From positions 1 through 50,237 of the forward strand of contig JAMYWO010000105.1 in assembly GCA_024220525.1 (NCBI GenBank): DNA of 50,237 nucleotides. The letters run 5' to 3'. A program made the position numbers and the translations under genes. The notes beneath the pieces are model-generated. The model saw nothing but the letters and a program-made list of their open reading frames with translations. It did not search any database and was not told the origin of the DNA. How positions within the stretch are numbered: position 1 is the first letter of the stretch; each line of letters begins with the position of its first letter. This DNA is from Cochliopodium minus. Lineage: Eukaryota > Discosea > Himatismenida > Cochliopodiidae. Below are positions 2,837 to 27,866 of this stretch, piece by piece.

Positions 2837-2988
2837 ATGTCCCAAAAATTCAAAGAAGAAATCCAAATTGTCAGTGAAGATGATCCTCATTTGGAGCAGA
2901 AAAATATTTAGAAGATTTTGAGCAGAAAGAAACTTTTGTTGAACTTAAAGACGTTTTAAAAAAAGAAAAAAAGAAGGATAAATATTGA
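2837..2988 (+). pseudogene. Frameshifted member of the MSQ small-protein family
   Basis: ATG at 2837 opens 24 codons (MSQKFKEEIQIVSEDDPHLE...) and stops at a TAG. The neighbouring frame continues with a similar charged composition (EKYLEDFEQKETFVELKDVL) to TGA at 2986-2988. One indel near 2895-2902 would join the two parts. This is either a decayed gene or a sequencing error in an A-rich tract. Confidence 0.45.
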
Positions 2989-3089
2989 TTAAAAATAATT
3001 TAAACAAATTTTTTTTTAACAATTTTTGGTGAAATTTAGATTTTTTTTTGATTTTTGATTTAAAATAAAAAAAAAAAGAAAAAGAAAAA

Positions 3090-3352
3090 ATGTCTATAAT
3101 TAAAAATTCATCATTTGAAGTAAATCTGCAAGTAAAGAAAATTTTTAATTTTTTAATGCTTTTAAAATTCTTTATAAGAGAGAGAGACACTACCAAGGAA
3201 CAAGTGAACAATATAAAAAAAGTATTTTAATTGTTGACAAACCTCCATCTTATTATGATAAAGGTGTCAGTCACAAGGATATGGTACCTAAACACTATAG
3301 CAAAGACAAGAAAATGGAAAAAAGTCACAAAAAGGAAAAACAAAATAAATAG
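3090..3352 (+). CDS. Small basic hydrophilic protein, 71 aa, two exons
   Basis: Function unknown. Exons 3090-3131 and 3179-3352 are joined by a 47-bp GT-AG intron. The product starts MSIIKNSSFEVNLQ, carries a Tyr/Pro/Lys middle (DKPPSYYDKGVSHKDMVPKH) and ends in a Lys-rich tail. There is no membrane segment or signal peptide. It is the first intact member of the plus-strand array of small hydrophilic genes and has no close paralogue in the window. Confidence 0.6.
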
Positions 3353-3479
3353 GAACTAAAATAAAAATTATTTATTTGTTTGAAAAAGTTATTTTTATTT
3401 GGTGAATTTTGTTTTTTTGATTGACAAAAATAAATTAAATAAATTAAAAAAAAAAAGTAAAAAAAAAACAAAAAAAATT

Positions 3480-3763
3480 ATGAGCTTCAATAAAAATCCT
3501 GTTTTAGATAATGAACAAGTAAAAAATTAATATTTTTGAAAGAAAGTAAAAAATTAAACATTTTTCAAACTTTTCTTATTATTTAGCGTGAAAAGTACAA
3601 TAGAGAAACAACAGATCTCAAAGACAAAGGTCTCACCAACATTGGTAAGTCTTCCTCATCAACCAAAGATGGAGGATTGATCAACAAAGAAATTTCTCCT
3701 CAAGAGGATAAGGAGCAAATGGAAAGGGAAAGAGAGAGGGGAAAGGAAGTGGAAAACAAATAA
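3480..3763 (+). CDS. Small hydrophilic MSF-family protein, two exons
   Basis: Exons 3480-3518 and 3587-3763 (68-bp intron) give 71 aa. It starts MSFNKNPVLDNEQ, resembling MSFKNPLDDR and MSFKNSVEDR of the genes at 26446 and 26894. The second exon includes ETTDLKDKGLTNIGK and ends in a charged Glu/Arg run. No known domain is visible and it is probably disordered. It lies directly upstream of the giant 1120-aa gene. Confidence 0.65.
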
Positions 3764-4106
3764 TATTCTTTATTAAATGAAGAAAATTAAATTTAATAAA
3801 AAATTAATTTTAACACAAAAAAAAATTAGATTTTTTCCATTTTGGATTTAAATGTTAAATAGATATTAAGGAAAAGTGTTTTTTAAAATTTTAAATTGAA
3901 GCAAAAAATTAAATATTTTTCAGCTAAATTCTATTAATATTGAAATAAAAATTGAATATAAATTAAAAATTAATAAAATGAAGCATATTTCCAAATGATT
4001 TAGACATAATATGTAGTTTAAAGTGGCGATTTTGTTTGATCATTATAAAATAATTTAAGCAAAAGAATTTAAATAAAAAAAATAAAAAAAAATAAAACAA
4101 ATTATT
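3764..4106 (+). other. Intergenic, 343 bp, no gene seen
   Basis: AT-rich spacer before the 1120-aa gene. The only GC-containing patch is around 4018-4033 (TTTAAAGTGGCGATTT), which could belong to a promoter. No ORF or repeat family is visible. Confidence 0.5.
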
Positions 4107-7100
4107 ATGTCACAACTAAGCAGAAATAATAATGGAGAGGGAACATACAAAATAGAAGAAATAGGTAGAAAAGAAATACCAATGAGTGAGATATCTACAG
4201 AGGAGGTATCGATGATTCCCACTACAAAATCCTCATCGATAACATCACTATCAACGAATCCAGATGAAAAAGGAATTGGATCTCAATCAAACATTCATGT
4301 TGGTAATGAAGAATCCAAGATAAGCAAGGATGAGATTACGAGGATGGATGAGGAGAAGATGGATAAGGTTGATCGTGATGTTGAATTTGATAATCAACAT
4401 CCTCCAGAGGTATCATCTACAATGTCTTCTGTACCTGAAAGCACATCTTTTCCAGAGAATCAATCCGACCTAGAAAATCCCATCACCACAGCAACTTTGC
4501 CAAAATCGATTCCTCCACCTCTTACATCCTCAATGCCTCCTCCACCACCTCTTACATCGATTCCAACATCAATTCCACTTTCATCATCGATACCCACAAC
4601 ATCAATGGCTCCTTTATCTTCTAATCCTCCACCATCTTTATCATCTGTTCCCACATCCAATCCTCCTCTTCCTACTTCGATGCCTCCTCCTCTGACATCA
4701 TTACCAACATCAATTCCGCCTTCATCATCGATACCCACAACATCAATGGCTCCTTTATCTTCTAATCCTCCACCTTCTTTATCATCTATTCCCACATCCA
4801 ATCCTCCTTTTTCATCTTCGATGCCTCCTCCACCTTTATCTTCCTATCAAACAGATCCATCTTTTCATTCGAGATATATGGTGACACAGTATCCCGATGT
4901 TTCAACCACATCTGTGCAAGATGGAACTTTAGACGATGGAGGACAACAACAAGGGGAAGTTTCTCCTCACAACAAGAAAGATAAGAAGAAAAGAAAATTC
5001 CACCTTCCCCATCTCTTTGGACATCACCATCACAAAAAAGAAGAAAAGTTAGACAATACTAAGAACAACTTACAAACATCCAACAATACCAATAACGACA
5101 ACATTAATAACATGTCTTCTTTTCCAATAAGCGAAAACAACACTAATTATCAAACAATGCCCATGACTTCTTACCCTCTAAATCAACCAACATCGTATCC
5201 ACAAACATCATATCCTCTTAATCAACCAACATCTTATTCTTTAAATCAACAAACTTCAAATCCAACAACAGTTTATCCTCCTACTGAGAATTTGTCTCCC
5301 GTTCCCAATGAAGTATGTGAAATGTGTGAAAAAGAGAAACAAATTGAGATGCAACAAGAGAGGGATAGATTGATGGAAAAACAGAGAGTGGAGATGGAGA
5401 GGTACGAGAAGGAAAGGTTGGAAAGGGAAAAGTTTATTGAACAACAAAGACTTCAAAAAGAACAGTACGAGAGAGATAGGTTGGAGAGAATCAGAATGTT
5501 GAACCTTGAAAGACAAGAAAGAGAAAGGGAAATAATGGAGAAAGTTGAGCATGAGAGAGCGGAGAGAGAAAGAGTGGAGAGAGAAAGGCTAATTCAACAA
5601 CAAAAACTTAAGATGGAGATTATGGAGCAGGAGAGATTGGAAAAGGAGAAAAAGTTGGAAAAGGAGAGATTTGAAAGGGACAGATTGTATGAACAACAAA
5701 AATTTAATCTTGAGAAATTGGAGAGGGAAAGGGCAGAGAGAGAGAACATTTTGAAGCAAGAAAGACGAAGAAAAGAACAACTAGAAAGGGAGAAGTTGGA
5801 GAGTGAGAGGTTGCTTGTTCATGAAAGAGTTCAACTTGAAAGATTTGAAAGACAAATGTTGGAGCAAAAGATGAGAGAGAATGATAGATTAGAGAGGGAG
5901 AGAATGTTTGAACTAATGAATTTGACAAAGGAGAGAAAGGAAAAGGAGAAATTAGAGAGGGAGTTGTTGGAGAGAGAAAACGAAGAGATTCAAAGAATTG
6001 AGAAGGATTCGCTTGATAAACATAGAATTGAAAGAGAACTAAAAGAGAGGCAAGACCATGACAGGTTGAGAATTGAGAAGGAGTTAATTCAAAGAGAAAG
6101 AGAAGAAAGAGAAAGGTTGGAGAACCAAAGACTGGAGATGCTAAATCTTGAGAGACACAGAATAACGGAACAAAAGAGAATGGAAAGAGAAAGAATAGAA
6201 AGGGAGATGATACAGTTGGAAATAAAAGAGAGGGAGAGACTTGAAAGGGATTGGCTTCTCGAGAGACAAAGACTTGAAAGAGAAAAAATGGAGTTGGAGA
6301 GGATGGAGAAGGAGAGACTTCTTAAAGAGAGAATTGAGAGAGAAATGCTGGAAAGGGAAAGACTTTCAAGAGAAAGAGAAAATGAGAGACAAAGACTTCA
6401 ACGGGAGAAGTTGATTGAAAGAGAAAGACTTGAGAGACAAATGATGGAAAGACAGATTCAAGACAGACAAAGGTACATGGAGCAAGAGAGGATGGAAAGA
6501 GAAAGACTTGAGATTCAAAGACAATTGTTAGATAGGAAGAGACAAGAAAAACAGATGATAGAGAAAGAGATGAGGGAGAGGGAGAGGATTGTGGAGCTTC
6601 AAAGACTTGAAAAGGATGAGTTGGAAAGAGTAAGACATCAAAGGGAAATGGGAGAAATGCAGAGAATAGAAAATGAAAGATTATTGCATCTCGAAATGCT
6701 TCAATCTGAAAGAGAGGAGAAGGACAGATTAGAGAAAGAAAGGATCATGAGAAGTCAAATTGAGAGGGAATACGATATTGATCAACACAGAAAGTTTACT
6801 GAAATGCAACACAGACAAGAAATGTATGAAAAAGAAAGAATTGAAAGAGAAGAACTCGAGAAAGAAAGGTTGATTGTCAAGCAGTTGTTAGAAAGAGAAA
6901 GAATGGAGTACGAACAACTAGAAAGAGAAAGATTTGAAAGACAACTTCACGGGAGAAATCAGAATGAACTTTTAGTTGTAAACCAACCTCCTGTTTATAC
7001 TCACACTCAACAACCTGTCATATACGAAAATTCCCAACCAAACACCTACAACAACGAGATCCCTATTTCACAGCCATACATTCGCAGTGGAGATCCTAAT

Positions 7101-7469
7101 ATGCAGCCAGTAATTTACAACAATCCTCAACCATTAATCCAGAGTAATGATCCTAATTTAAGATCTCAAACCTATCCAATGACCCAAAACTTTACAAAAA
7201 CTAGTCTTCAAAATAATCAACCAGTTGTACAGAACAATGATCCAAATTTGAAACCTGTTTATTACGAAAATACTCAGCCAAATATCCAAAACAATCAACC
7301 ATTAGTACAAAACAATCAACACAACTTGAACACTGATAATACTCGTCCAAACATCCACAATCTTCAACCTATTATTGAGAAAAATCCGCAATCACCTCTA
7401 AAATCAGATCCAAAATTAATTGATTCTGGTTGGAATGAATCTACAACTTATTTTGAAAAGAAAAACTAA
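4107..7469 (+). CDS. Giant Pro/Ser-rich plus Glu/Arg-rich helical protein, 1120 aa
   Basis: Single-exon gene of unknown function with clear modular composition. Residues 1-30 hold the leader MSQLSRNNNGEGTYKIEE with a following EIPM, shared with the genes at 7794 and 9657. Residues about 130-245 are Ser/Pro/Thr-rich with a 47-residue unit present twice. Residues about 289-315 hold a basic/His element (KKRKFHLPHLFGHHHHKK) related to one in the paralogues. A Cys pair CEMCEKEK lies at about 404-407. Residues about 405-945 are an uninterrupted Glu/Arg/Leu repeat (ERLERER type, trichohyalin-like), expected to form a long charged helix. The tail has Asn/Gln/Pro repeats (QPVIYNNPQPLIQ). No signal peptide or membrane segment is visible, so a cytosolic structural or scaffold role is my inference. 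The long antisense ORFs over the helix are shadows. Confidence 0.85.
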   Translation: MSQLSRNNNGEGTYKIEEIGRKEIPMSEISTEEVSMIPTTKSSSITSLSTNPDEKGIGSQSNIHVGNEESKISKDEITRMDEEKMDKVDRDVEFDNQHPPEVSSTMSSVPESTSFPENQSDLENPITTATLPKSIPPPLTSSMPPPPPLTSIPTSIPLSSSIPTTSMAPLSSNPPPSLSSVPTSNPPLPTSMPPPLTSLPTSIPPSSSIPTTSMAPLSSNPPPSLSSIPTSNPPFSSSMPPPPLSSYQTDPSFHSRYMVTQYPDVSTTSVQDGTLDDGGQQQGEVSPHNKKDKKKRKFHLPHLFGHHHHKKEEKLDNTKNNLQTSNNTNNDNINNMSSFPISENNTNYQTMPMTSYPLNQPTSYPQTSYPLNQPTSYSLNQQTSNPTTVYPPTENLSPVPNEVCEMCEKEKQIEMQQERDRLMEKQRVEMERYEKERLEREKFIEQQRLQKEQYERDRLERIRMLNLERQEREREIMEKVEHERAERERVERERLIQQQKLKMEIMEQERLEKEKKLEKERFERDRLYEQQKFNLEKLERERAERENILKQERRRKEQLEREKLESERLLVHERVQLERFERQMLEQKMRENDRLERERMFELMNLTKERKEKEKLERELLERENEEIQRIEKDSLDKHRIERELKERQDHDRLRIEKELIQREREERERLENQRLEMLNLERHRITEQKRMERERIEREMIQLEIKERERLERDWLLERQRLEREKMELERMEKERLLKERIEREMLERERLSRERENERQRLQREKLIERERLERQMMERQIQDRQRYMEQERMERERLEIQRQLLDRKRQEKQMIEKEMRERERIVELQRLEKDELERVRHQREMGEMQRIENERLLHLEMLQSEREEKDRLEKERIMRSQIEREYDIDQHRKFTEMQHRQEMYEKERIEREELEKERLIVKQLLERERMEYEQLERERFERQLHGRNQNELLVVNQPPVYTHTQQPVIYENSQPNTYNNEIPISQPYIRSGDPNMQPVIYNNPQPLIQSNDPNLRSQTYPMTQNFTKTSLQNNQPVVQNNDPNLKPVYYENTQPNIQNNQPLVQNNQHNLNTDNTRPNIHNLQPIIEKNPQSPLKSDPKLIDSGWNESTTYFEKKN
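4551..4832 (+). repeat. Tandem 141-bp duplication inside the 1120-aa gene
   Basis: Two in-frame copies (4551-4691 and 4692-4832) encode nearly the same 47-residue Ser/Pro unit beginning LTSIPTSIP or LTSLPTSIP and containing SSSIPTTSMAPLSSNPPPSL. The copies differ by scattered substitutions. Confidence 0.8.
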
Positions 7470-7793: not shown

Positions 7794-9326
7794 ATGTCAC
7801 AACTAAGTAACACTCAAAACCAAGAAGGTACATACAAAGTTGAAGATAAAATAATACAAGAGATACCATTGAATCAAGGAGGATCACAAAGCAACGTTCC
7901 AATAACAAGCGTACCAATGCAAACAATGAATGTACCATCAAGTACAACACATTCTACAACACCAATTCCACCTACTACAACACATCATGATGTTGAAAAA
8001 AGTGATAAGAAAAAGAAAAAGAAATTTCGCTTGCCCAAAATCTTTGGTCGCCATAAAAAGCAAGAAGTAAATGAAAATGTAAACATCCCAATAGGATCAC
8101 AAGGATTTGATACATCATCAAAACAATATCCTACAACATCTGGATCATATTCTACAAATGTCCCAACATCAAATGTGATTCCAACATCCAATGTCCCAAC
8201 ATCAACAGTACCTGTATCAACATTAGAGTTTCCCTCAGTTCCAACAACATCATATCAATCCACACAACCATCTACGCAACCATTTGTTTGCCAAAAACAT
8301 AGATCTCTCCCAGAAAATCAAAAGATAGTAAATCCTCCAACGGGTGGTATCTATCATGTGGTTGAAGATATTCCTTTGGAATCTACCTCTATCAAATCTG
8401 TTGAAATCATCCAACCCGATATCGATTCAGAGCATGATAGCAAAGAAGGTTTGGAACAAAGTAGATTAGAAAATGAGTTGAGGGAGAAGGAGATAATGGA
8501 ACAAAGGAGGATGTTAGAAGCGGAAATAATGGAAAAAGAAAAACTCAAGCATGATCTTGACAATCAACTCCAAAGAGAACAAATTGAAAAAGAAACACTT
8601 GAAAAAGAAAGATTGGAATGGGAGAAGCAAGAAAAATTATTGTTAGAAGAAGATAGACAAGATAAAATCAGACTTCTTGAGGCAGAAAGACTTGAAAGGG
8701 AAAAAGCTGAGAGAGAAAGAAGCGAGATGGAGAGGTTGCTTGGAAGGGAAGTTTTGGAGAAGGATAGAATTCAGCAATATCAACTTGAAAGAGAGAAATT
8801 GGAGCAAGAGAGATTGGAGCAGGAAAAGTTAGCGAAGGAGCAGGTTGAAAGAGAAAAGTTTGAACAACAGAAACTTCTTGAGCAAGAAAAACTTGAGAGG
8901 GAAAGAATTGAACAACAAAGGGTAGAAGTCGAAATGGAGTTGGAAAAGGAGAGAAGGGAGAGGGAGAGATTGCAAAGAGAGAAGGAGGAGATGGAGTTGG
9001 TTGATCTCGAAAAGATCGAATCTTTGCAGCAGGAAAAAGAACAACTCGAACAAAAACTTCTTGAGAAGGAAAGATGGCAACAAGATCAACTTGAAAGAGA
9101 AAAACTCGAAAGACAAAAATTAGAAAAAGAAAGGTTCGAGAATAAAAAGTTGCTTGAACAAGAAAGATTTGAGAACGTAAAGTTGGAGGACGAGAATAGT
9201 GAAATGGAGAGAGTTCTTGGCAGGGAAAGGATGGAGAAGGATAAACTTGAGAACAAACAGAATTCTATTGATCCTAATGATGACATCATTGAAGAAACAA
9301 CCGTCATAAAGACTACTTTTAATTGA
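7794..9326 (+). CDS. Glu/Lys-rich helical protein, 510 aa, paralogue of the 1120-aa gene
   Basis: Single exon, function unknown. The leader MSQLSNTQNQEGTYKVED with a following QEIPL matches the genes at 4107 and 9657. Residues about 66-90 are the basic element KKKKKKFRLPKIFGRHKKQE. A Thr/Ser/Pro/Val linker follows, with one Cys-His segment (FVCQKHRSLP, about residue 166). Residues about 213-486 are a charged helix built of ERLEREKAERER-like repeats. The C-terminus is EETTVIKTTFN. It repeats the order leader, Thr/Ser linker, basic element, Cys element and charged helix of the larger gene but lacks its Asn/Pro tail. It is likely an expanded or contracted duplicate. Confidence 0.85.
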   Translation: MSQLSNTQNQEGTYKVEDKIIQEIPLNQGGSQSNVPITSVPMQTMNVPSSTTHSTTPIPPTTTHHDVEKSDKKKKKKFRLPKIFGRHKKQEVNENVNIPIGSQGFDTSSKQYPTTSGSYSTNVPTSNVIPTSNVPTSTVPVSTLEFPSVPTTSYQSTQPSTQPFVCQKHRSLPENQKIVNPPTGGIYHVVEDIPLESTSIKSVEIIQPDIDSEHDSKEGLEQSRLENELREKEIMEQRRMLEAEIMEKEKLKHDLDNQLQREQIEKETLEKERLEWEKQEKLLLEEDRQDKIRLLEAERLEREKAERERSEMERLLGREVLEKDRIQQYQLEREKLEQERLEQEKLAKEQVEREKFEQQKLLEQEKLERERIEQQRVEVEMELEKERRERERLQREKEEMELVDLEKIESLQQEKEQLEQKLLEKERWQQDQLEREKLERQKLEKERFENKKLLEQERFENVKLEDENSEMERVLGRERMEKDKLENKQNSIDPNDDIIEETTVIKTTFN

Positions 9327-9656: not shown

Positions 9657-10689
9657 ATGTCACAACTTAGAAATAACCAAAATCAAGAGGGTAGTTACAA
9701 AGTAGAACAAAAGATTAAACAAGAAATGCCATTGCAACAAGTAAGTAACTTTGGATCTCAAAGCTTACAAAGTGGAACAACAATGAACACAACTGCGATA
9801 CCCTCTTCCACAACAACAACATTGCCAACAAGTGATACTTATGGAATAACAGAACCATATATAACATCAACATCATTACCAACAACAACTCAGAGCTGTA
9901 ATGTTTGTGAACAAAATAAAATGCAAGGTAATGTTCCTACAACAAGTAGTGTTCCCAAAACTACTGATACTCATCATCACGGAGAAAAAGTAAAAGATGA
10001 TAAATCTCATCACAAATCTCATTTCCCTGCAAACATTTTCCATTATCATCACGGTTATGATGTAAATAAAGATTTTTTTTAAATTTGAAAATAATATTTA
10101 CGTTTTTCTTGTACTTTTAAAGGATAAAAGAGGTGAAACATGGAATGAAACTAACATGGAGAAAAAAGTGGTGAATGAACAACAGCCAATGCAACAAGGG
10201 ATGGTAAATAACACCAACACAAATAATGTGGATAATAAGACCACATATACAAGCAAGAACACAGTGATGGGGGATAACAATCCATCCAGATTGGATAATT
10301 CAAATATCATGCCAACAAATGAGAATACATCACTAACAAAAACAGCGATACCAACATCCACTATGCAAAATCAATCAATGACGAATCAGATGCCCATTCA
10401 TCAGCCTATGCAATCATCGATGACGATGAATCAGCCTATGCAACCATCCATGCAGATGAATCAACAGAATGTGATGGCTGTGCCTGTTGAAACAGTATCT
10501 ATGCTGGAAGGATCATCTTTTGTCCCTAGTGGTACTCCACAGGGTCAGTATGAGACAAGTTTCAAGAAGCAGAACGATCACAACTACAAACTTAGAAAGG
10601 AAAATCATGAGCCTGAATCAACTGGTCCTTGGCAAGAGAATCTTCCATCCAAGAATAAACCTAAATATGTTGTCAGAAAAGATGATTAA
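9657..10689 (+). CDS. Leader-family protein with Met/Gln repeats, 323 aa, two exons
   Basis: Exons 9657-10061 and 10123-10689 with a 61-bp GT-AG intron. The leader MSQLRNNQNQEGSYKVEQ plus QEMPL is that of the genes at 4107 and 7794. A Thr/Ser-rich linker contains a CNVCEQNK Cys pair (residues 80 and 83). A His-rich form of the basic element follows (KSHHKSHFPANIFHYHHG), and the intron falls just behind it. Exon 2 is rich in Asn, Gln and Met, with NQPMQPSMQMNQQN-type repeats, and ends with a basic tail (PSKNKPKYVVRKDD). The charged helix of the two larger relatives is absent. Function unknown; predicted soluble and disordered. Confidence 0.75.
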
Positions 10690-11078: not shown

Positions 11079-11888
11079 ATGTCACAAATTTCACAAAACA
11101 ACCAAAACATTAATAGAGAAGAAACAAAAGAAAGTTTTACTCCAAACAGTAACGTTCCGGGAAGCAAAGGTAAATCAAAAAACAAATTAAAAAAAAATTT
11201 GTTGTTAATGTTTACATTTTTTTTTAAAAAAGCAAACTTTGAAGAAAAGAAAGATTTCTTTGAACACTTGAAAGAAACAGAGAATGATGAATTTGGTGGA
11301 ACTTCCGTTGGAAATGAACAAGGAAAGTTTGAAGAACAAACTGGATCAATTGGATCACAAGGAAACTTGAAAACAGGAACACCTGGAGGATCTAATTTGG
11401 TGAGGTATAAAAAAATAATAAAAATTAAAAAACTTAATATTTTTTGAAGCAATGTTCCAAGTGGTACATCTGTAAGTAAAGATACATCTTGTCCAAAAGA
11501 CACAAAGTGTGATACATCAGAGAGCAAGTTAACAAGCAAAGGATCTTCCAGCATTCCAACCCCACCTCCTCAACCAGAGCTAAGCGATAAAGGGGAAATA
11601 AAGAGCAACAGTACCTATGGGCAAGGGACAGATAACAACGTTCCTCCTGGAACTTCTTTGAACGAAAAGAAGGACACCGATTTGAATACAAATGATTGGA
11701 GCTCCGATCAACAATTTGGAAGGGATTTGAGTGGTGAACAAGATATTTACAAAAAAGGAGAATGGAACAAAGGTGAACTTTCTTCTGGTAAACATTGGAA
11801 CGAGAAAGAGTCTGACAAGAACTCGAGCAAAAGAGACTCTTCCGACAAGAACAGGAATGAGAGTGAATCTTTTAACAAAGATAAATAA
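11079..11888 (+). CDS. MSQ-family hydrophilic protein with FFEHL motif, three exons
   Basis: Exons 11079-11169, 11233-11404 and 11450-11888 give about 233 aa. It starts MSQISQNNQNINREETKESF. Exon 2 encodes FEEKKDFFEHLKETEND, the same FFxHLxET motif found twice in each of the proteins at 21119 and 24894. Exon 3 is Gly/Ser/Asp/Lys-rich (NVPSGTSVSKDTSC, NVPPGTSLNEKKDTD), with two related NVPxGTS segments, and ends in a Ser/Asp/Lys/Asn tail. No signal peptide or membrane segment. Function unknown; composition suggests a disordered soluble protein. Confidence 0.7.
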
Positions 11889-12052: not shown

Positions 12053-12334
12053 ATGAAAGAAAATAATGAAAAAACAAATGTTTTAAACAAATCTGCTTCT
12101 CAAAAAGAATCAATTCCAATTAGAGAATTGTTAGGAAGTAAAACATCTGGTGATCAAATTAATCTTCCAATACAAAATGCGTCTAAAAAAGAAGATTATT
12201 TTGAACAAAAAAAACACAAGTTTAAAAATAAAATGAAAAAATTTTTACACATCAAAAAGCCTAAAAAAGAATATAAATATGGTGGTTTGTGTGGAAACCA
12301 TAAAATGGGATTTGATACTAATATTCCTCACTAA
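12053..12334 (+). CDS. Small basic protein, 93 aa
   Basis: Single exon starting MKENNEKTNVLNK. Residues about 52-80 are strongly basic with an aromatic core (KFKNKMKKFLHIKKPKKEYK), resembling the basic element of the leader family, followed by YGGLCGNHKMGFD with one Cys-His pair. It also contains an IPIREL segment recalling EIPL of the leaders. Unknown function; a diverged or shortened member of the array is likely. Confidence 0.6.
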   Translation: MKENNEKTNVLNKSASQKESIPIRELLGSKTSGDQINLPIQNASKKEDYFEQKKHKFKNKMKKFLHIKKPKKEYKYGGLCGNHKMGFDTNIPH

Positions 12335-18637: not shown

Positions 18638-18910
18638 ATGTCAAAAGAAAAAAAAATTACAAAGAGAGAATCTTTTCTTAAAATTCCTCATGGACAAGGA
18701 CACATGTCAGATGATCATTTTAATGAACAACAAAACAATCTTTCCAAACAAAAGTTTGAAGGCACTTTGAAATTCCCCAATCATGCCAATCTCACCAAAG
18801 AACAAGTTATCAATAGGATAAATAAAGAGGAAGAGAAAGAAAAAGCTCCACAAAAATTTAAGGAAGTTGAAGCCAAAAAATATTTTCTCAAATTGAAATC
18901 AAATTATTAA
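18638..18910 (+). CDS. Small basic hydrophilic protein, 90 aa
   Basis: Single exon starting MSKEKKITKRESFLKIPHGQ. It contains FPNHANLTKEQVINRINKEE, a likely helix, and a Lys-rich end. No paralogue is evident. Function unknown. Confidence 0.6.
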   Translation: MSKEKKITKRESFLKIPHGQGHMSDDHFNEQQNNLSKQKFEGTLKFPNHANLTKEQVINRINKEEEKEKAPQKFKEVEAKKYFLKLKSNY

Positions 18911-19031: not shown

Positions 19032-19352
19032 ATGTCATATACAGGTATTGTTCAAGTAACAAATGAATTGAGAAAGAGGGAAGAAAAAACAGAATCTTCT
19101 TTAGAAAAGGCAGTATCTTCTTTTAAAAAAGAGAATGAAAACATGATACATGTATCAGAAAATTTATTTGGAAAGAAAGAAATTGATGGAATTCACAGAG
19201 ACAGTTTGATCCAAAGAATTGAAGATAAATACATGGGAGAAGGATTGAAAAATGAAATGGATTCCAATTTCGTACATAGAAAACAACAAAACTTTTATGA
19301 AAATGATAAAACTGAAAGTATCTTGCAAAACAAATTTGATCTGACTAAATAA
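19032..19352 (+). CDS. Small charged protein, 106 aa
   Basis: Single exon starting MSYTGIVQVTNELRKREEKT. The composition is Glu/Lys-rich and helical, with FGKKEIDGIHRDSLIQRIED in the middle and a DLTK end. No known domain; array member by position and composition. Confidence 0.6.
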   Translation: MSYTGIVQVTNELRKREEKTESSLEKAVSSFKKENENMIHVSENLFGKKEIDGIHRDSLIQRIEDKYMGEGLKNEMDSNFVHRKQQNFYENDKTESILQNKFDLTK

Positions 19353-19449: not shown

Positions 19450-20084
19450 ATGTCAGAAAAAAAAGAAGGGTTTAATCTATCAAAAAGATCTTTTCTCTGT
19501 AATTAAGTTTAATATTATGTTTTAGTTTTTTCACAAAAGTTGCAGATAAATTTAAAAATATGTTTGGAAATGAAAAAGAAGGAAAAAGCGGGGACACTGC
19601 AAACCCACACAATGAGAAAGGTGAAGTGTTGGGTGAAAGGGAAAAAAAAGAGTTTGTGGAGAATCTCCAAACACATTCTGCTTATGAGAACAATACCAAT
19701 GATTACAACAATCAAAAACAAGGTAAAAATAAAGTTAATTTCCAAATTTGTTTTTTTTAATAAATTGTTTACTGAAATAATTTTAAATAAATTTAAAATA
19801 TTTATTCTTTAAAAAGGAGTTTGGGGTGTTGACAATCGCCCAAATCTTAACAATTATGATCTATATACGAGTAACCAACAAGGTGGATTTGGAGGAATTA
19901 TAGATGATTCATCTCAGCATCATACAAATGATTTCAATTTTCACAATATAGGTAAAAGATTTAACTATTCTCTGAAAATTTTTTTCATTTTATTTTAAAT
20001 CATCAAAAAGGATGGAGCAAAAATGATAATAGTGGCACTGGTTTTGATTCTATTACTTTCAATGATGAAAAAAAGTCTTCTTGA
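19450..20084 (+). CDS. MSEK protein with QQGGFGG tail, 141 aa, four exons
   Basis: Exons 19450-19469, 19526-19722, 19817-19951 and 20011-20084, all phase-consistent. The product begins MSEKKEG, then FFTKVADKFKNMFGNEKEG, comparable to GFWNQFED of the 17827 gene. Later it has NLNNYDLYTSNQQGGFGGII and ends FDSITFNDEKKSS. The 20-nt first exon is typical of the sub-family. Hydrophilic, unknown function. Confidence 0.65.
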
Positions 20085-20141: not shown

Positions 20142-21001
20142 ATGAGGAAAAAAGTAAAAAAATTTTTTACAATTAAAAAGAGAAAAGAAAAAGAAGGAAA
20201 AAATGAAAATGAAAGTGATAAAAAAATAAAAAAAGAAGAAACAAAAGTTAATTTCGAATATCCTAAATTTGAGGATGATCTTGAAGATAAAGAAGATGAT
20301 TTTTGGAATGTAAAAAAAATTGAAGAAAAACCAGTTGTATCTGAAGAAAAAATGAAAACATCACCCATAAATAAAGAAAATACAGTTCCCTTCCAAAAAG
20401 ATGATGTTGAAAAGAAGAAATCAAATGAATCACAATTAAAGGAAGAATCTGTATCTTGTACGAATGTGGATCCCTACCTTACTAAAATTAAAGAAAGGAT
20501 TGATACAAATAAACAAAGTAAAATTTTTTCAATATTTCGGTTAAATTTATTTTATTTAATTTATTTAATCAAAATAAAAAAAAAGCCGAAATTAAATTTT
20601 TAATTTCTTTTTTTTCTTTTTTTTTATTTTTTTTATTTTAATTACCAGAAGAACAATCTATTTATCTGAATAAAGAATTTACTGAAAAACCACCCGTATT
20701 AAATCAAGTTCCTAAATCAAATCTACCTCCAAATTTCGAATATCAAATTAATCAACAGTATCCTTTATCAACATATCATACCATAAATGGACCTCCACAA
20801 GGATATGAAACATTCAATAATAATTTTGGATCATATAATACTATTAATGGACCTCCCAAAGGATATCCAAATCCAAATGCAAATCCTCAAGAATTTCAAC
20901 GACAAAAAAAACAACGCACTCCCAATCCATTTTATTTGGAATTTCACAAATATGGAACACTAAATTTCCCAACAAATAATAATAGTCTTAATACAAATTA
21001 A
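20142..21001 (+). CDS. Hydrophilic protein with TINGPPxGY repeat, 242 aa, two exons
   Basis: Exons 20142-20517 and 20649-21001. The N-terminus is very basic (MRKKVKKFFTIKKRKEKEGK), resembling the basic element of the leader family. A Glu/Lys/Asp-rich middle follows. Exon 2 is Asn/Pro/Tyr-rich with TINGPPQGYETFNNNFGSYN immediately followed by TINGPPKGYPNPN, and ends FYLEFHKYGTLNFP then Asn-rich residues. The 3' part of exon 2 is duplicated at 24550-24783 as a broken copy. Unknown function. Confidence 0.68.
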
Positions 21002-21446
21002 AAAAATTATTTAAAAAAAATACCTTTGTTTCGTTTGATTCAAATCCTATATGTATCCTCAAATTAAAAGTTAATAAATTAAAATCAAATTAAAAGAAAA
21101 TAAAAAAAAAATATTTAAATGAGCCAAAAAAAACATCAAGAAAATACACTAGCTTCATTCAAGGGAACCAAAGAATTTTTCAAACACTTTGGAGAGACAC
21201 AGTACGAGAAAAAAATTCCAGAAACTTCTTTCAAAAAAAAGATTGATTTTTTTGATCATCTTGGAGAAACAAATAAAGATCAAGCTCAAAATAAAAAAAA
21301 TAAAGACGAAAAGAGAGTACCTTCCGAAATATTGAGCACAGGAAAATTTAATCAATTTTCAAATAAAAATTTGGGAATGAATGTCTTCAAAGTGATATGC
21401 AAAGTGGAAATACAAATGTTCCTTTAGATGCTCTTTATGATGAAAT
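20761..21446 (+). repeat. Segmental duplication, copy 1
   Basis: This segment (3' end of the 20142 gene, spacer and most of the 21119 gene) is nearly identical to 24550-25224, about 3.78 kb downstream. The 2OG-oxygenase-like gene lies between the copies. Confidence 0.8.
21119..21427 (+). CDS. FFxHxxET protein, 102 aa as read; C-terminus frameshifted
   Basis: Starts MSQKKHQENTLASFKGTKEF. It has two FFxHxxET motifs (EFFKHFGETQ and DFFDHLGETN) about 30 residues apart, shared with the gene at 24894 and, once, with the one at 11079. Compared with 24894, one base is missing near 21364 (AATAAAAATTT against AATCAAAAATTT), so the reading frame leaves the family sequence after NQFSN. The homologous codons continue in another frame through 21446 and beyond. 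Either a recent loss-of-function indel or a homopolymer error. Confidence 0.6.
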   Translation: MSQKKHQENTLASFKGTKEFFKHFGETQYEKKIPETSFKKKIDFFDHLGETNKDQAQNKKNKDEKRVPSEILSTGKFNQFSNKNLGMNVFKVICKVEIQMFL

Positions 21447-21664
21447 TTTGGGAATGGAGAATAAAGTGTTGGAAACTAACAAAATAGATAAAAAAAAGAA
21501 AAGTCTTTTTTTAAATTTTATTAAATTAGAAAGTTTATTCAAAAAAAAGATATAGATCAAAATTTTGTTTTGAATAATACATATATCCTGTTTCTAAATT
21601 AATATATTTTTTTTTTTATTTCATGAAAATTATATAAAAAAAATTGTTTGTGATATCTTGCTCG

Positions 21665-24010
21665 ATGGATAAATTGAAAGAAGAATTTCATGATTTGATC
21701 TATAATGGGAATGCCTTGATTGAGAATTGCTTATCAGATAGATTCTTTAAATATCTTGGAATAGATATTGAGGATTATGGTCATTTCCCACTTCCCTTCT
21801 CATTCAATCAAAAGAATGAAAATAATGATAGATCAAAATTGATGGAATTTCTCAAAAATAATGAAGATGAAGATGATGATGAAGAAAATGAGAAAATAAT
21901 AAGAATCAATCCAAATATAGTGACCCTGAATGAAGAATGGGATGAATATATGTCCAGATTGATGGATGAGATTTCCCAGAAATTTGGATATAAAAACATA
22001 AAAGTGGAATATGTGTTTTCTTCACTATTGATATTCCAGCAAAATGAAAAAAAGACAGTGTTGACAGAAAAGACAGATGGGAGAGTGTTTGCAAAGATGA
22101 TAGTTGGATTGCCATCTCAATACGAAGGAGGAAGAGTGAGAATCAAGAGAATCAAAAACAAAGGAGATCTCGAAGAAAAAGAGATCAGAAAATTTTATCA
22201 GGATTTTGTTTATTTTGCTTATCACATTGGAAGTGAAGTTACTATAGATCCAATCACTTCAGGAGAAAGACTATTTTTGGAATATTCAGTATGTTTGAAA
22301 AAAAATGACAAAGAGATGATAATGGACAAAATGGAAGACAAAACAATTGAGAGATTCTTTCAAGCATTGTACGACGAACAAAAAGTTTCGTTTCTGCTTT
22401 TTCCTTTGAACAATATAGCCAAAGATAATCAAGTTAAACACAAAGATGACATTGAACTGGTTGGTTGTTTGGAAAATATATCAAAACTTCCACTGGTGAA
22501 TTGTGAGTTGTTGTTGACTACTGTCTTCAAAACTGTTACTGAATACAGATCAGAGAAATCCAAAGAATATTTACTCGATGGAATGTGTTATGTGGGTGAT
22601 GATAACAATCACAATTATAGTTCTTGTAAAAGAGATTTGACGATGGAAAACTTTTTGATAAATTGCATGAATTGGAAATATGACGAAATTAGCTCTAATA
22701 GTGATGATGATAATGATGATGATACCAAAACATACTACCAATCTTGCTTGGTCATCATCCCTCAAAGATTGGAATTCATGGACAATATTTCGAGTGTTTT
22801 TTCAGATACTTTTGAAGAATTCGTCAAGAATCATCACAATTTTGATTGGCAATCAAATGAACATCATTTCTATCCAGGCCAGACAAAAAACAAAATATTG
22901 ACGATGATATTGTGTATCAAAACTCTTGAAAAGACATCAAAAATGATTTTTCCCAAATATCTCAAATTCGATCTCATTCGAAGAGTGAAATTTCCCCATT
23001 ACTCTATTTCTCAAATCATTAACAATATGCCAATTAACAAAAAACATATCGAAGAATACAATCTTCTGTTCGATTTGCTTTTGAAAGATGATCAACTTCC
23101 ATCTTTGAATTGTTTGTTTGAGAGGTTGGGAGATACAAGTATTTTTAAGCTTTTGTTTGAAAAATGCCTCGACTTGCTTTACATTTACAAATGGGAAAAT
23201 ATGGACTTGATTGTTGGTTGTTTGTTCAAATACATCAACAAAAACATTCGTCAAAAAACTATGGACAAATTGGAAAAATTGATAAATGATTTTGGAGAGG
23301 AGAAAATTGCTCCAAAAATGCTCGAATTTTATCAAGAAGATGAAAATAAATATTTGTTGAAAAACTCTGTTTTTGAAAAGTATCTGTCTAATTTTGAAAG
23401 AGAAATGAACAGTATTTCGTTTGTTTCACAAAATGTAAATTTTGAAGTGATTTTTCGTTATTTGATCAAATATTCTCCATTTGAAGTGATCGACAAAATA
23501 ATTGACAATTACATTGAACAAAACCAAAAAAAAGAAATTTCTCCATTCCATTTTTTACCTTTTTTGAAAAATATTCCCAAAGAAAAACTCATAAATAGTG
23601 CCTTTTCGAAACTCTTCAATTTCCAAATGAAAAAATTAGAAAAAGAAATTGATCATTTCACAAAAAAAAAAAATGATTGTTGGAATTGGAGTTTTTTGGA
23701 CAATCTTCTCTCACAAAATCAACAAGTAACTATTTTAGACTTTGAAAAAAAAAATTTGTATCATCACGATGAGATAAAAGTTGAGATGATATCCAAAGAT
23801 AAATACAAAGTCATCAAATCAAGTGAATTCAAAAATAAATTGGAAAATGAAATTGACAATAAATTGGAGTTGTTGAAAGAATGGCTCGAACATACAAAAC
23901 AATCCTTTCAATCATTTTTTGGAAAAAGAAATTTGGATGAAGAAGTTCAAATCAATGAAAACCCAAACAATACAAAAAAACCAAAAATTTCAAAAAATGA
24001 ACAAAAATGA
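21665..24010 (+). CDS. 2OG-Fe(II)-oxygenase-like protein, ligands apparently lost, 781 aa
   Basis: Single exon. ATG at 21665 (MDKLKEEFHDL) is the first in frame. Residues about 114-212 follow the prolyl-4-hydroxylase-like 2OG-oxygenase fold as found in long fungal and amoebal proteins. The landmarks are LLIF, then VFAKMIVGLPSQYEGGRVRI, and finally SEVTIDPITSGERLFLEYSV. In active members the first block carries an HxD ahead of TEK and the later block has HEV before the TSG-Arg segment. Here the corresponding residues are TVLTEK and SEV, so the HxD and distal His are absent while the 2OG-binding Arg (in SGERL) remains. The remaining ~570 residues are helical and unrecognised, ending in a basic tail. 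A regulatory or pseudoenzyme role is inferred. It is the only enzyme-like gene within the hydrophilic array. Confidence 0.72.
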   Translation: MDKLKEEFHDLIYNGNALIENCLSDRFFKYLGIDIEDYGHFPLPFSFNQKNENNDRSKLMEFLKNNEDEDDDEENEKIIRINPNIVTLNEEWDEYMSRLMDEISQKFGYKNIKVEYVFSSLLIFQQNEKKTVLTEKTDGRVFAKMIVGLPSQYEGGRVRIKRIKNKGDLEEKEIRKFYQDFVYFAYHIGSEVTIDPITSGERLFLEYSVCLKKNDKEMIMDKMEDKTIERFFQALYDEQKVSFLLFPLNNIAKDNQVKHKDDIELVGCLENISKLPLVNCELLLTTVFKTVTEYRSEKSKEYLLDGMCYVGDDNNHNYSSCKRDLTMENFLINCMNWKYDEISSNSDDDNDDDTKTYYQSCLVIIPQRLEFMDNISSVFSDTFEEFVKNHHNFDWQSNEHHFYPGQTKNKILTMILCIKTLEKTSKMIFPKYLKFDLIRRVKFPHYSISQIINNMPINKKHIEEYNLLFDLLLKDDQLPSLNCLFERLGDTSIFKLLFEKCLDLLYIYKWENMDLIVGCLFKYINKNIRQKTMDKLEKLINDFGEEKIAPKMLEFYQEDENKYLLKNSVFEKYLSNFEREMNSISFVSQNVNFEVIFRYLIKYSPFEVIDKIIDNYIEQNQKKEISPFHFLPFLKNIPKEKLINSAFSKLFNFQMKKLEKEIDHFTKKKNDCWNWSFLDNLLSQNQQVTILDFEKKNLYHHDEIKVEMISKDKYKVIKSSEFKNKLENEIDNKLELLKEWLEHTKQSFQSFFGKRNLDEEVQINENPNNTKKPKISKNEQK

Positions 24011-24260: not shown

Positions 24261-24549
24261 TTTTTTTTTTCTTAAATAAAATTAATATTTTGTTCTTTAA
24301 AACCATATTCAAAAGTGCCCCAACAAGATTTATGTACAAAAACCATCTTATAATCAAAGTTTTAGTTTCTCAACCTTCTTAATGAAATTATTTTAATAAA
24401 AATAATTACTCGATCGACATGTATCACATCATTCTTTTAATTTGATAATTACTTTCATCCTTTTTTGAAATCTAATTTGTCTTTTATTCTTCCATCTAAT
24501 GGTCTTGTAGAATTATTGTTTTTCGGAAGAGATTTTCCACAAATTGGAA

Positions 24550-24783
24550 TCCTTTAACAACATTTCAAACCATAAATGGACCTCCACAAGGATATGAAAC
24601 ATTCAATAATAATTTTGGATCATATAATACTATTAATGGACCTCCCAAAGGATATCCAAATCCAAATACTCAAGAATCTCAACTACAAAAAAACAACGCA
24701 CCCCAAATCCATTTTATTTGGAATTTCACAAATATGAAACACTTAATTTCCCAATAAATAATAATAGTCTTAATACAAATTAA
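24550..24783 (+). pseudogene. Broken 3' copy of the 20142 gene
   Basis: Repeats the last ~230 bp of the 20142 coding region, including both TINGPP[QK]GY units. It lacks everything upstream, lacks two codons and has a one-base deletion in the A-run before CAACGCAC, which breaks the FYLEFHKY frame. It is the upstream part of duplication copy 2. Confidence 0.75.
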
Positions 24784-25224
24784 AAAAATTGTTAAAAATA
24801 ATACCTTTGTTTCGTTTGATTTAAATCCTAATATATCCTCAAATTAAAAGTTAATAAATTAAAATCAAATTAAAAGAAAATAAAAAATATTAAATGAGCC
24901 AAAAAAAACATCAAGAAAATTCACCAGCTTCATTCAAGGGAACCAAAGAATTTTTCAAACACTTTGGAGAAACACAGTGCGAGAAAAAAATTCCAGAAAC
25001 TTCTTTCAAAAAAAAGATTGATTTTTTTGATCATCTTGGAGAAACAAATAAAGAACAACCTCAAAATAAAAAAAACATAGATGAAAAGAGAGTACCTTCT
25101 GAAAATTTGAGCACACGAAAATTTAATCAATTTTCAAATCAAAAATTTGGGAATGAAGAAAGTCTTCAAAGTGATATGCAAAGTGGAAATACAAATGTTC
25201 CTTTAGATGCTCTTTTTGATGAAA
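24550..25224 (+). repeat. Segmental duplication, copy 2
   Basis: Pairs with 20761-21446 with small indels. It holds the broken 3' end of the 20142 gene and the intact second copy of the FFxHxxET gene. Confidence 0.8.
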
Positions 25225-25241
25225 ATCAAAATAAAACTTAA
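24894..25241 (+). CDS. FFxHxxET protein, 115 aa, intact copy
   Basis: Starts MSQKKHQENSPASFKGTKEF with EFFKHFGETQ and DFFDHLGETN, then a Lys/Asn linker and SLQSDMQSGNTNVPLDALFD near the end. The C-terminal NTNVPLDAL segment is present but out of frame in the 21119 copy. Soluble, unknown function. Confidence 0.72.
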   Translation: MSQKKHQENSPASFKGTKEFFKHFGETQCEKKIPETSFKKKIDFFDHLGETNKEQPQNKKNIDEKRVPSENLSTRKFNQFSNQKFGNEESLQSDMQSGNTNVPLDALFDENQNKT

Positions 25242-25350: not shown

Positions 25351-25551
25351 ATGTCTCAAAATTTTAACCACGATAAAGATATGTTGTTATTACGTAAAAT
25401 GGAGAGGGAGTTTCTTGACAATAGAAGAGCAAGACATTGGATTAAAAAGGATCCTAAATTCGTCAAGGTGGATACAACTGAAGTTTCTCCTTTTGATTAC
25501 AATTGCAAAACGAATGAAAAAAGAAATAATATCAATACTTTAAACCACTAA
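25351..25551 (+). CDS. Small basic protein, 66 aa
   Basis: MSQNFNHDKDMLLLRKMERE at the start, then FLDNRRARHWIKKDPKFVKV, and DTTEVSPFDYNCKTNEKR near the end. Single exon; no paralogue recognised beyond the MSQ start. Confidence 0.6.
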   Translation: MSQNFNHDKDMLLLRKMEREFLDNRRARHWIKKDPKFVKVDTTEVSPFDYNCKTNEKRNNINTLNH

Positions 25552-25729: not shown

Positions 25730-25960
25730 ATGAGCTTCAAAGCATCTAAAAATGATAATTTGATTACTGACAAGACTGACCCGAATGATACTATTTTCCA
25801 CCAAAATGAAAGTGGAGAAACTCTTCTTGAAAAAGATGAAAAGGTGAAACCTGAGTTTGATGATGATATACCATCGAGTGTCACAGATCTCAATGAGGTT
25901 CCCATTTCAAACAAAGTGATTGAAGCGAAAGAAGAAATGTTGGACAAAATGAATAAATAA
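25730..25960 (+). CDS. Small acidic MSFK protein, 76 aa
   Basis: ATG at 25730 begins MSFKASKNDNLITDKTDPND. The product is acidic with PEFDDDIPSSVTDLNEVPIS; the DLNEVPIS part recalls DFNDVPLR of the 26894 gene and DFGDIPVF of the 26446 gene. Member of the MSF sub-family, unknown function. Confidence 0.62.
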   Translation: MSFKASKNDNLITDKTDPNDTIFHQNESGETLLEKDEKVKPEFDDDIPSSVTDLNEVPISNKVIEAKEEMLDKMNK

Positions 25961-26066: not shown

Positions 26067-26327
26067 ATGAGTTTTAAACACTTACCTGAGAATGAAGGAG
26101 AAATTTTTGAAAAGAAAATTCCAATTGATCCACAGCTATCAACAGAGATGAGCCCATGGGAAAGCAATCTCAATGAAATGAAAGACAACATCTTTGAACA
26201 AAAAGAAAGGATCAAAAAATCTGGAAATGAGAAGCCTTTAGAAGAAAATTTTATCGATCCACAAAACAAATATTTGAACATTAATGATAAACAAAAAATA
26301 GAAGAAACAGATTGTGATCTTAATTGA
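26067..26327 (+). CDS. Small hydrophilic MSFK protein, 86 aa
   Basis: MSFKHLPENEGEIFEKKIPI at the start; IDPQLSTEMSPWESNLNEMK follows, and the IDPQ and SPWxxN pattern matches IDPKDINPWN of the 26446 gene. Single exon. MSF sub-family, function unknown. Confidence 0.62.
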   Translation: MSFKHLPENEGEIFEKKIPIDPQLSTEMSPWESNLNEMKDNIFEQKERIKKSGNEKPLEENFIDPQNKYLNINDKQKIEETDCDLN

Positions 26328-26445: not shown

Positions 26446-26745
26446 ATGAGTTTTAAGAATCCTTTAGATGATAGAACATATGATGTGAAAGATACACGCA
26501 AATCAAAAGATCACACAAATCAGCCGATTGATCCAAAAGATATAAACCCTTGGAACTTTAGAAATCCAAAAGAGGATATCTTCTATCCAAGAGATGCTTT
26601 GGACATCAGACACGATAATCCAGAAGGTAGAGATTACAAGCCAAGGGATAATGATCTTAATCCTATTGATGGATCTTTTGATGGAAAACCACATTATCTT
26701 CCAAATGATTTCGGTGATATACCTGTGTTTCAAAACAAAAAATGA
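26446..26745 (+). CDS. Small hydrophilic MSFKNP protein, 99 aa
   Basis: Starts MSFKNPLDDRTYDVKDT. It shares with the next gene the order YDVKDT or CDVKDT, PIDPKDINP, PKEDIFYPRDALD, HDNPEG and a DFGDIP end. The DIFYPRDALD core is matched by KFFHPKEFVET in the 27642 gene. A tandem family of probably disordered Asp/Pro-rich proteins. Confidence 0.68.
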   Translation: MSFKNPLDDRTYDVKDTRKSKDHTNQPIDPKDINPWNFRNPKEDIFYPRDALDIRHDNPEGRDYKPRDNDLNPIDGSFDGKPHYLPNDFGDIPVFQNKK

Positions 26746-26893
26746 TTAAAAAAAAAAATTTATTCTCTTAAAACTTAATAAAAAGCCTAATTTGCGTTAA
26801 CAAGTTATCTTGGCAAAAATTTATAAAATTTGAAGAAAAATTAAAATCAAAAAAAAAAAATAAAAAAAGATTCAAACAAAAAAAAATTAAGTA

Positions 26894-27235
26894 ATGAGTT
26901 TTAAAAATTCTGTAGAAGATAGATGTTGTGATGTCAAAGATACTCATCAATCAAATGATCACAAAAACAAGCCGATCAATCCAAAAGAAATTAATCCTCA
27001 CAACAAAACTCAACCCAAAGAAGATATTTTCCATCCAAGAGATGCATTAGATACCAAACATGAAAACCCAGAAGGGAAAAATTATAAGCCGAACAACAAA
27101 GATCAAAGTCCCACTGAGAATAAAAGTATCTCTCCTCATGAAATTCCCACTGATTTCAATGACGTACCACTTAGAGAAAATAAAGATGATTTTGGAGCTT
27201 TAGGAGGAAATGTTTTGGCTAATGATCAAATTTAA
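26894..27235 (+). CDS. Small hydrophilic MSFKN protein, 113 aa
   Basis: Clear tandem paralogue of the 26446 gene: MSFKNSVEDRCCDVKDTHQS, NPKEINPHN, PKEDIFHPRDALDTKHENPE and DFNDVPLRENKD. It has an extra Gly/Ala-containing C-terminus (FGALGGNVLANDQI). Function unknown. Confidence 0.68.
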   Translation: MSFKNSVEDRCCDVKDTHQSNDHKNKPINPKEINPHNKTQPKEDIFHPRDALDTKHENPEGKNYKPNNKDQSPTENKSISPHEIPTDFNDVPLRENKDDFGALGGNVLANDQI

Positions 27236-27323
27236 ATTTGCATAAAAAAAAAAAATCAAAAAATAAAAAAAAATTAACACCAAATATTGATTTTAAAATA
27301 ATTAAAAAAAAAAAAACAAATTT

Positions 27324-27518
27324 ATGTCCCAAATTGATACTGATAATAACAATCTAATTGAGACAACTCCAAAACAAAAAAAAGAAGATCAAAATTTGAT
27401 GGATGAAGAAAAAGAATGGAAGAGAATGAGCATTATCTCCTCTGACAAAGTAATCCAAAGGGAAAAATTTTATCATCTGAAAAAAACGGAATTAAAAAAT
27501 AAAGAAAACAAAAAATAA
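27324..27518 (+). CDS. Small charged MSQ protein, 64 aa
   Basis: MSQIDTDNNNLIETTPKQKK then a Glu/Lys-rich helical stretch (MDEEKEWKRMSIISSDKVIQ) and a basic end. Single exon; unknown function. Confidence 0.58.
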   Translation: MSQIDTDNNNLIETTPKQKKEDQNLMDEEKEWKRMSIISSDKVIQREKFYHLKKTELKNKENKK

Positions 27519-27641
27519 TTTTTAAAAAAAAATTTTCAGCTAAAAAGTTTTAATTTTTTTACCGAAAAAAGTTCACAAAATAAATTTTTTTAATTATTTT
27601 TGAAAATTAAAAAATAAAAATTTAATAAAAAAAATTACAAA

Positions 27642-27866
27642 ATGTCCCAAAGAAATGAAAGTAGTCATACAGACAAATATGTTTATAAAAATTCAAAAGT
27701 AGAACAAGGTGTGAGAGAGTCTGTTCAGAACAGCACAAACAGAGAATCCAACTTGCAAGAGCCTCACCACCAAGTAGTAGATCCTCAAAATATTCCTTCT
27801 TATAATGACAAACAAAAGGACAAATTTTTTCATCCAAAAGAATTTGTGGAAACAAAAGACAAATAA
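27642..27866 (+). CDS. Small hydrophilic MSQ protein, 74 aa
   Basis: MSQRNESSHTDKYVYKNSKV at the start; VDPQNIPSYNDKQKDKFFHP and KEFVETKDK at the end resemble the PKEDIFHPRDALDTK segment of the MSFK genes. Last recognisable member of the array. Confidence 0.62.
   Translation: MSQRNESSHTDKYVYKNSKVEQGVRESVQNSTNRESNLQEPHHQVVDPQNIPSYNDKQKDKFFHPKEFVETKDK

Follow-up and report, generated by a model that had tools for sequence, protein, structure and literature searches.

Stress resistance of the Toxoplasma oocyst requires a cluster of four hydrophilic, disordered genes resembling those for late embryogenesis abundant (LEA) proteins, which are described as present in one family only and for which a de novo origin has been proposed (PMC10128015). 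In the midge studied for anhydrobiosis, the islands linked to this trait are reported to consist of tandem paralogues, some of them without orthologues (PMC7363813), while the hssA family of Dictyostelium is described as nearly 100 genes of about 213 bp with a 13-bp first exon (PMC6198379). Here, we describe a window of 50,237 nucleotides from the amoeba Cochliopodium minus (contig JAMYWO010000105.1, C105 below, positions 1 to 50,237), in which positions 2837-27866 hold an island of about 31 genes, hydrophilic and mostly small, all at one locus; neighbors within it are paralogous and under purifying selection where compared. Among the open-access titles and abstracts listed on such arrays, no account of this locus was found, which does not establish its absence from print.

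The likeness to these systems differs from case to case. The TgLEA8x0 cluster of Toxoplasma gondii shares with the array the clustering of hydrophilic, disordered genes with little mutual similarity and, putatively, the confinement to one lineage, and its four genes are described as intronless, subtelomeric, assigned to LEA class 6 and tested for function (PMC10128015). The array, in contrast, comprises about 31 genes, 13 of them with introns, gives no LEA match and is known from sequence alone. The ARId islands of Polypedilum vanderplanki (PvLea and PvLil) are, like the array, compact groups of tandem paralogues, some of which have no known orthologue, with a few other genes among them; the PvLEA proteins are reported to carry the 11-mer motif of group 3, drying is reported to induce many of the island genes, and the likeness to the array lies in the gene arrangement (PMC7363813). 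Among the matches listed, the hssA family is the nearest amoebal case in the literature: hssA/7E/2C of Dictyostelium discoideum likewise consists of many very small genes with tiny first exons, but it is described as one closely related family, whereas the array is heterogeneous and charged, and the two were compared by description, not by sequence (PMC6198379).

A hydrophilic gene island on one strand

The window covers the initial 50 kb of a 134-kb contig in an assembly of 44.65 Mb and 598 contigs. A custom splice-aware gene finder, run on the plus strand and with four models corrected by hand, returned 32 open reading frame (ORF) models between 2837 and 27866, numbered g01 to g32, with introns in 13 of them and a median spacer of 148 bp (range 56-883). 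When both strands were run and overlaps were resolved by score, the region gave 23 genes at a minimum score of 20 and 28 genes at a minimum score of 8, all on the plus strand (23/23 and 28/28), so that the array lies where the original prediction had placed it, on one strand. About 9 of the 32 models have weak scores, because the both-strand run keeps 23 at the higher threshold; the lowest coding scores are those of g01, g08, and g10. The same-strand run overshoots the array both ways, from 1117 to a minus-strand gene at 32387, and strand alone is therefore no marker of the island edges.

The array was compared with 49 control genes from 91 kb at other loci of the assembly, called on both strands at a minimum score of 20; this set is non-random, having been picked for likeness to g13 or g24, with a more distant stretch of C105 added, and it includes three genes of the g13 family from contig C85. 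Array proteins are short (median of 93 amino acids [aa] versus 232 aa in the controls) and strongly hydrophilic, with a grand average of hydropathy (GRAVY) below -0.9 in 30 of 31 proteins (g24 left out) versus 8 of 49 controls, and medians of -1.35 and -0.52, respectively. The median fraction of charged residues in the array is 0.36, and in a charge-hydropathy comparison 26 of 28 proteins plot on the disordered side (four proteins with faulty models excluded), the exceptions being g11 and g24. Together with the GRAVY values, this bears out the expectation that the products are hydrophilic and probably disordered. An MS start is found in 25 of 32 array proteins versus 2 of 49 controls (Fisher p 1.7e-12), and the loosely defined motif [FIL][FY]x(0-1)H, picked post hoc from the sequences, occurs 12 times in the array against 2.1 expected. 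Control neighbors share a strand in 23 of 42 cases, with a longest run of 5; at this rate, 22 same-strand steps have a probability of about 2e-6 for the like-for-like gene set (8e-9 when all 32 models, weak ones included, are counted).

Probable local duplication, with purifying selection where compared

Pairwise local alignment against 150 shuffles, with g01 and g24 left out and g04 and g05 taken without their Glu/Arg/Lys part, scored 418 of 435 pairs (the other 17 had negligible scores) and gave Bonferroni-significant similarity in 7 of the 435: g02/g03, g05/g06, g09/g10, g11/g12, g17/g18, g23/g25, and g29/g30. All seven are neighbors, g23/g25 once g24 is set aside. Similarity drops with array distance (Spearman -0.20, with 0 of 2000 gene-order permutations as low), also after removal of nine strong pairs, two of them non-neighbors (Spearman -0.16, again 0 of 2000); past direct neighbors, the trend is small (mean z 0.3-0.9). 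A coarser test with 40 shuffles placed 9 pairs above z 6, including the non-neighbors g06/g12 and g25/g28, for which Bonferroni p was 0.12 and 1 at 150 shuffles. The seven significant pairs do not describe a single tandem paralogue family with all members detectably homologous. Since these pairs are all neighbors and similarity decays with distance, the data point to growth by local tandem duplication and divergence, not broad reshuffling; most likely, judging from these alignments, the array grew by duplication of neighbors, and older copies diverged past recognition. The overlapping sub-families of the original prediction, with their shared pieces, are thus only partly borne out, and the reuse of pieces across many combinations is weak.

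A segmental duplication with 93% identity between its copies (20760-21445 and 24549-25224) flanks g24 and holds the g22 end plus the whole of g23 or g25. It is the youngest event in the array. Two members, g01 and g23, look broken, and the unrelated g24 sits between two young copies. Single-protein genome searches with g05 (111-aa leader part), g30, g25, g11 (first exon), and g20 gave matches only inside the array. With 11.9 kb of array DNA as the query, 39 of 1076 candidate regions were scored, and among the matches listed, all but the internal duplication and C85 resemble AT-rich low-complexity sequence. Within this genome, the five single-member searches and the distance decay agree with the predicted duplicating set at one locus.

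Selection was assessed by the Nei-Gojobori method, with bootstrapping, in eight paralogue comparisons within the array; three out-of-frame comparisons (g13 versus C85, g13 versus C46, and the g22 fragment) were left out. The nonsynonymous rate (dN) was lower than the synonymous rate (dS) in all eight comparisons (dN/dS 0.11-0.47), and the corresponding proportions (pN<pS) agreed in 86-100% of bootstraps. The ratios were 0.27 for g29/g30, 0.25 for g11/g12, 0.40 for both g09/g10 and g17/g18, 0.33 and 0.35 for the leaders of g05/g06 and g04/g05, 0.47 for the first 84 codons of g23/g25, and 0.11 for the halves of g11. Ser at position 2 is kept via both codon boxes (TCN 17, AGY 8). By these substitution patterns, the members with testable relatives are translated, selected genes. 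Rapid duplication, as proposed, fits two of the eight comparisons (g23/g25 and the g11 halves) but not the array as a general rule, since dS is 0.8-1.9 in the other six.

These values bear on three other explanations of the locus. One is that tandem copies simply arise and drift, few of them matter, and the array is mostly turnover, which we regard as distinctly unlikely. The frame-broken g01 and g23, the copied g22 fragment, the many members without a significant relative in the array, and the weak coding scores of g01, g08, and g10 are in line with such turnover; the low dN/dS, frames open in about 29 of 32 models, and the MS start maintained through two codon boxes speak against it. Another is a family of differentiation markers of the hssA type, in which small, fast-evolving proteins are strongly made in one terminal cell type or stage and act in signaling or at the RNA level. 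The very short first coding exons (37-50 nt) of g02, g03, g15, g17, g18, and g21 recall this gene plan. Against it stand the Gly/Ser-rich composition of hssA proteins, the fact that the array is no single homogeneous family, and dN<dS, which argues for a role at the protein level; this explanation, too, appears improbable. A locus involved in host-parasite or self/non-self conflict, diversifying under changing selection, could account for strongly diverged paralogues at one place, yet dN<dS speaks against it, no signal peptide or membrane segment is visible by eye in the members, and viral contigs yielded nothing related to g30, the g13 motif, or exon 1 of g11 in short-peptide-pattern scans, which distant relatives can escape. 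We consider it very improbable. A scan of the same kind, with the same limit for distant relatives, found no relative of the g13 motif in prokaryote genomes.

Candidate functions of the island

Domain content was examined by Pfam hmmscan of 30 of the 32 members (g06 in two parts, g11 as its first exon; g01 and g18 left out) at E limits of 0.01-10. No scanned member reached the cut-off, with weak sub-cut-off matches to unrelated families, and a match of each gene to a different known family, the outcome that had been set against the prediction, did not occur among them. NCBIfam gave nothing at cut-off for eight proteins, and its one match, for g13, was far below. The description of the genes as domain-less thus holds for cut-off matches and has to be amended for g13, which carries a repeated motif. 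The charged, disordered-looking, domain-free composition of the predicted proteins fits either protectants or an assembled material.

Tentatively, and at somewhat less than even confidence, we favor the view that the island encodes LEA-like protectants which serve a dormant or stressed stage and are specific to the lineage. This preference is an argument by likeness: the nearest described loci of such build, the TgLEA cluster and the ARId islands, have that role, and the TgLEA proteins, too, are restricted in lineage and resemble one another only to a limited degree. Serial tandem duplication of neighbors, followed by strong divergence, would have produced the set; a stressed or dormant cell, such as a cyst or spore, would make the island proteins together. 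Being highly charged and either disordered or helical under some conditions, these polymers would protect enzymes and membranes and contribute to gelling of the cytoplasm. The Cys/His-repeat members may hold Zn or Cu or buffer thiols. In this way, the island would have a mode of action corresponding to that of the LEA-type islands in the Toxoplasma oocyst and the anhydrobiotic midge without belonging to a known LEA family. In favor of this reading count the hydrophilic, charged, and largely disordered composition, the lack of Pfam matches at cut-off in the scanned members, the low dN/dS of the eight comparisons, the absence of further genomic copies for the five members searched other than g13, and, for g13, its family of Lys/Glu-rich repeat proteins and its modeled long helix.

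Several observations weigh against a protectant role. No LEA family was listed for the members scanned by Pfam. Hydrophilins are defined by a Gly content above 6% and a hydrophilicity index above 1, and this combination occurs in 7 of 32 array proteins, so the array as a whole falls outside the class. Neither the Cys/His-rich pair g11 and g12 nor g04, with its 1120 aa, resembles LEA proteins, and composition and low-confidence single-sequence models cannot separate protectants from other disordered proteins. Codon optimization is absent, with C-ending codons at 0.26 in the array, 0.35 in the controls, and 0.48-0.56 in three elongation-factor-like genes, and no upstream word is common to the array genes beyond shuffles. 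This codon usage speaks against abundance in growing cells; together with the missing upstream word, it is still compatible with stage-limited expression.

The main rival to the protectant reading is a structural matrix locus, whose products would be assembled into one scaffold, inside the cell or at its cortex, held together by cross-links via Gln/Lys, Cys, or metal-bound His. The vertebrate epidermal differentiation complex combines, at one locus, trichohyalin-like coiled Glu/Arg-rich, Pro-rich, and Cys-rich structural proteins, and the array resembles this complex of vertebrate epidermis in composition and clustering only. Long Glu/Arg/Lys proteins (g04 with 1120 aa, and also g05), Pro/Ser/Thr-rich parts, Gln/Asn/Lys-rich small proteins, and Cys/His repeats all occur at the locus, in members without a domain match at cut-off, but the majority of members are small and charged, and Cys is missing altogether from 13 of 32. 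On balance, we judge a matrix unlikely. In a more specific form, which we put forward as quite improbable, the locus would provide all components of a material that assembles itself inside the cell; these would be made together when the cell hardens or dries. In this material, g04 and g05 would supply a Glu/Arg/Lys rod backbone, at least 12 small MS-type proteins would serve as charged spacers or solubilizers, and the Cys/His proteins would be metal-switched cross-linkers.

Members of the island

All members lie on the plus strand. The first, g01 (2837..2911; score 2.9), has an MSQ start and a frame that closes after 24 codons, with coding-like sequence past the stop in another frame to about 2987; it is likely a frame-broken member or a sequence error. 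Reading frames of the members at 2837-2990 and 21119-21500 both close early relative to coding-like sequence downstream. After g01 come two 71-aa, two-exon relatives (Bonferroni 0.0047), g02 (3090..3352) with an MSI start and g03 (3480..3763) with an MSF start. An MSQL leader opens each of the three longer proteins that come next: g04 (4107..7469; 1120 aa), with a Pro/Ser/Thr-rich part, a His patch, a Glu/Arg/Lys part of ~540 aa that is trichohyalin-like by eye, and an Asn/Gln-rich tail; g05 (7794..9326; 510 aa), with a basic/His patch and a Glu/Arg/Lys part; and its relative g06 (9657..10689; 323 aa, two exons; Bonferroni 3e-4). The three-exon g07 (11079..11888; 233 aa) has an MSQ start and an FFEHLKET motif, and g08 (12053..12334; 93 aa, score 7.3) is basic with Cys/His close to the C-terminus. 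The MSSK proteins g09 (12410..12637; 75 aa) and g10 (12751..12960; 69 aa, with a low coding score of 2.8) are relatives (Bonferroni 1.9e-4).

Many C-x2-H-x3-C-x2-C-like repeats and a His-rich patch characterize g11 (13158..14097; 288 aa, two exons), the halves of which are 95% identical across 80 codons, and the Cys/His repeats recur in g12 (14242..14992; 205 aa, two exons; Bonferroni 1.9e-10). Across 13158-14992, these repeats take the form CGTHGQGCKTC and variants, a possible metal-binding unit for which no named family was found. The two-exon g13 (15171..16003; 259 aa) carries two copies of a motif also present on C85, C46, and C60. After it come g14 (16182..16433; 83 aa), g15 (16717..17108; 115 aa, two exons, MSE), g16 (17348..17684; 92 aa, two exons, MSK), and g17 (17827..18188; 80 aa, three exons, MSE, with GMGEQQGGSYAQS), whose hand-made model has a non-typical GTTT donor at intron 1. 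Its relative g18 (18337..18581; Bonferroni 6e-8) is partial and spans a 100-N gap. Then follow g19 (18638..18910; 90 aa, MSK), g20 (19032..19352; 106 aa, MSY), with no other match in the genome, and g21 (19450..20084; 146 aa, four exons, MSE), whose first exons are hand-made.

The two-exon g22 (20142..21001; 242 aa) has a 3' copy at about 24549..24780 that lacks the g22 5' part and lies within the segmental duplication. The 102-aa ORF of g23 (21119..21427), with two FFxHxGET motifs, departs in frame from its sister g25 (24894..25241; 115 aa) after about residue 86, and between them lies g24 (21665..24010; 781 aa, single exon). The remainder are small: g26 (25351..25551; 66 aa, MSQ), the MSFK proteins g27 (25730..25960; 76 aa), g28 (26067..26327; 86 aa), g29 (26446..26745; 99 aa), and its relative g30 (26894..27235; 113 aa), then g31 (27324..27518; 64 aa, MSQ) and g32 (27642..27866; 74 aa, MSQ, FFHPKEFVETK).

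The g13 repeat family and g24

The motif of g13, (G)HKIKEVGHNVNAxLKExxGVGVGNYSSEVDRE..HKEKYEEK, was matched 17 times at E up to 0.1, in three genes on C85 and also on C46, C60, and C105, and alignment of nine copies from C85 and g13 shows 13 invariant columns. Its conserved HKIKEVGHNVNA..KE..G.G.GNYSSEVD motif places g13 in a dispersed family of repeat proteins, rich in Lys/Glu, that are also encoded on three other contigs. Proteins with the HKIKEVGHNVNA..KE..GVGVGNYSSEVD motif lie at C85:30280-33872, C46:17-1132 and about 2970-3690, and C60:38385-38751; the three on C85 stand in a row, and the single-motif version on C60 may be the simplest form. The two proteins of the family scanned besides g13, including the longest from C85, gave no Pfam match at cut-off. 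In a single-sequence AlphaFold2 model of modest confidence (mean predicted local distance difference test [pLDDT] score of 68, predicted template modeling score of 0.27), exon 2 of g13 forms one long helix.

The prediction had counted nearly all genes between 2.8 and 27.9 kb as array members, which does not hold for g24: this protein belongs to a dispersed family with relatives on C54, C6, and C191 and is best seen as an unrelated intruder. Proteins of this family have ~750-800 aa, with one longer model on C54, and give no profile match at cut-off; the C191 relative adjoins two genes with ankyrin-like repeats by eye. Parts of g24 recall a 2-oxoglutarate oxygenase by eye, an assignment that we do not claim, as neither g24 nor its C191 relative matches a profile at cut-off. 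A single-sequence structure model of g24 was uninformative (mean pLDDT 38.6).

Genes and sequence features outside the island

The conserved genes of the window are split by short AT-rich GT-AG introns, as expected of eukaryotic gene structure. Profile scans of the flanks identified a Gly_transf_sug sugar transferase, a cytochrome P450, a fatty-acid hydroxylase, and a cytochrome b5, with an F-box-like protein slightly under cut-off. Two genes with F-box-like and membrane segments (36676-38257 and 38332-39806) have, by eye, near-identical first exons and first introns and then diverge, which suggests a recent tandem or conversion event. At about 40090-42199 and 42374-44564, two cytochrome P450 genes, each made of many small exons, appear to form a tandem pair; the second was the one profile-scanned. 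Tracts resembling (AAAAAAT)n occur at 1-70 (contig start), 31934-32000 (beside an N gap), and 50150-50237 (window end), and such tracts may break the assembly. An actin search gave 83 matches in the assembly; for one actin, the top-scoring PDB entries were 4efh (Actin-1) and 1nlv (Actin), both amoebozoan, a weak hint given that actins of animals follow at a distance of a few bits.

Implications for disordered protein families

If its genes prove to be co-expressed as a system for dormancy or for building a material, the island would be a protist's set of domain-less disordered proteins of unusual size for one locus. The origin and functional gain of disordered protein families could then be studied in one place, for which the island is suited because neighbors at several stages of divergence sit together. 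As a self-assembling material, it would represent the equivalent, in a protist, of cornification or of the cytoplasmic gels of tardigrades, built from genes without relatives outside the lineage. Even if it mainly generates and turns over gene copies, the locus would offer a clean case of tandem duplication under purifying selection in which detectable similarity is lost within a few gene positions.

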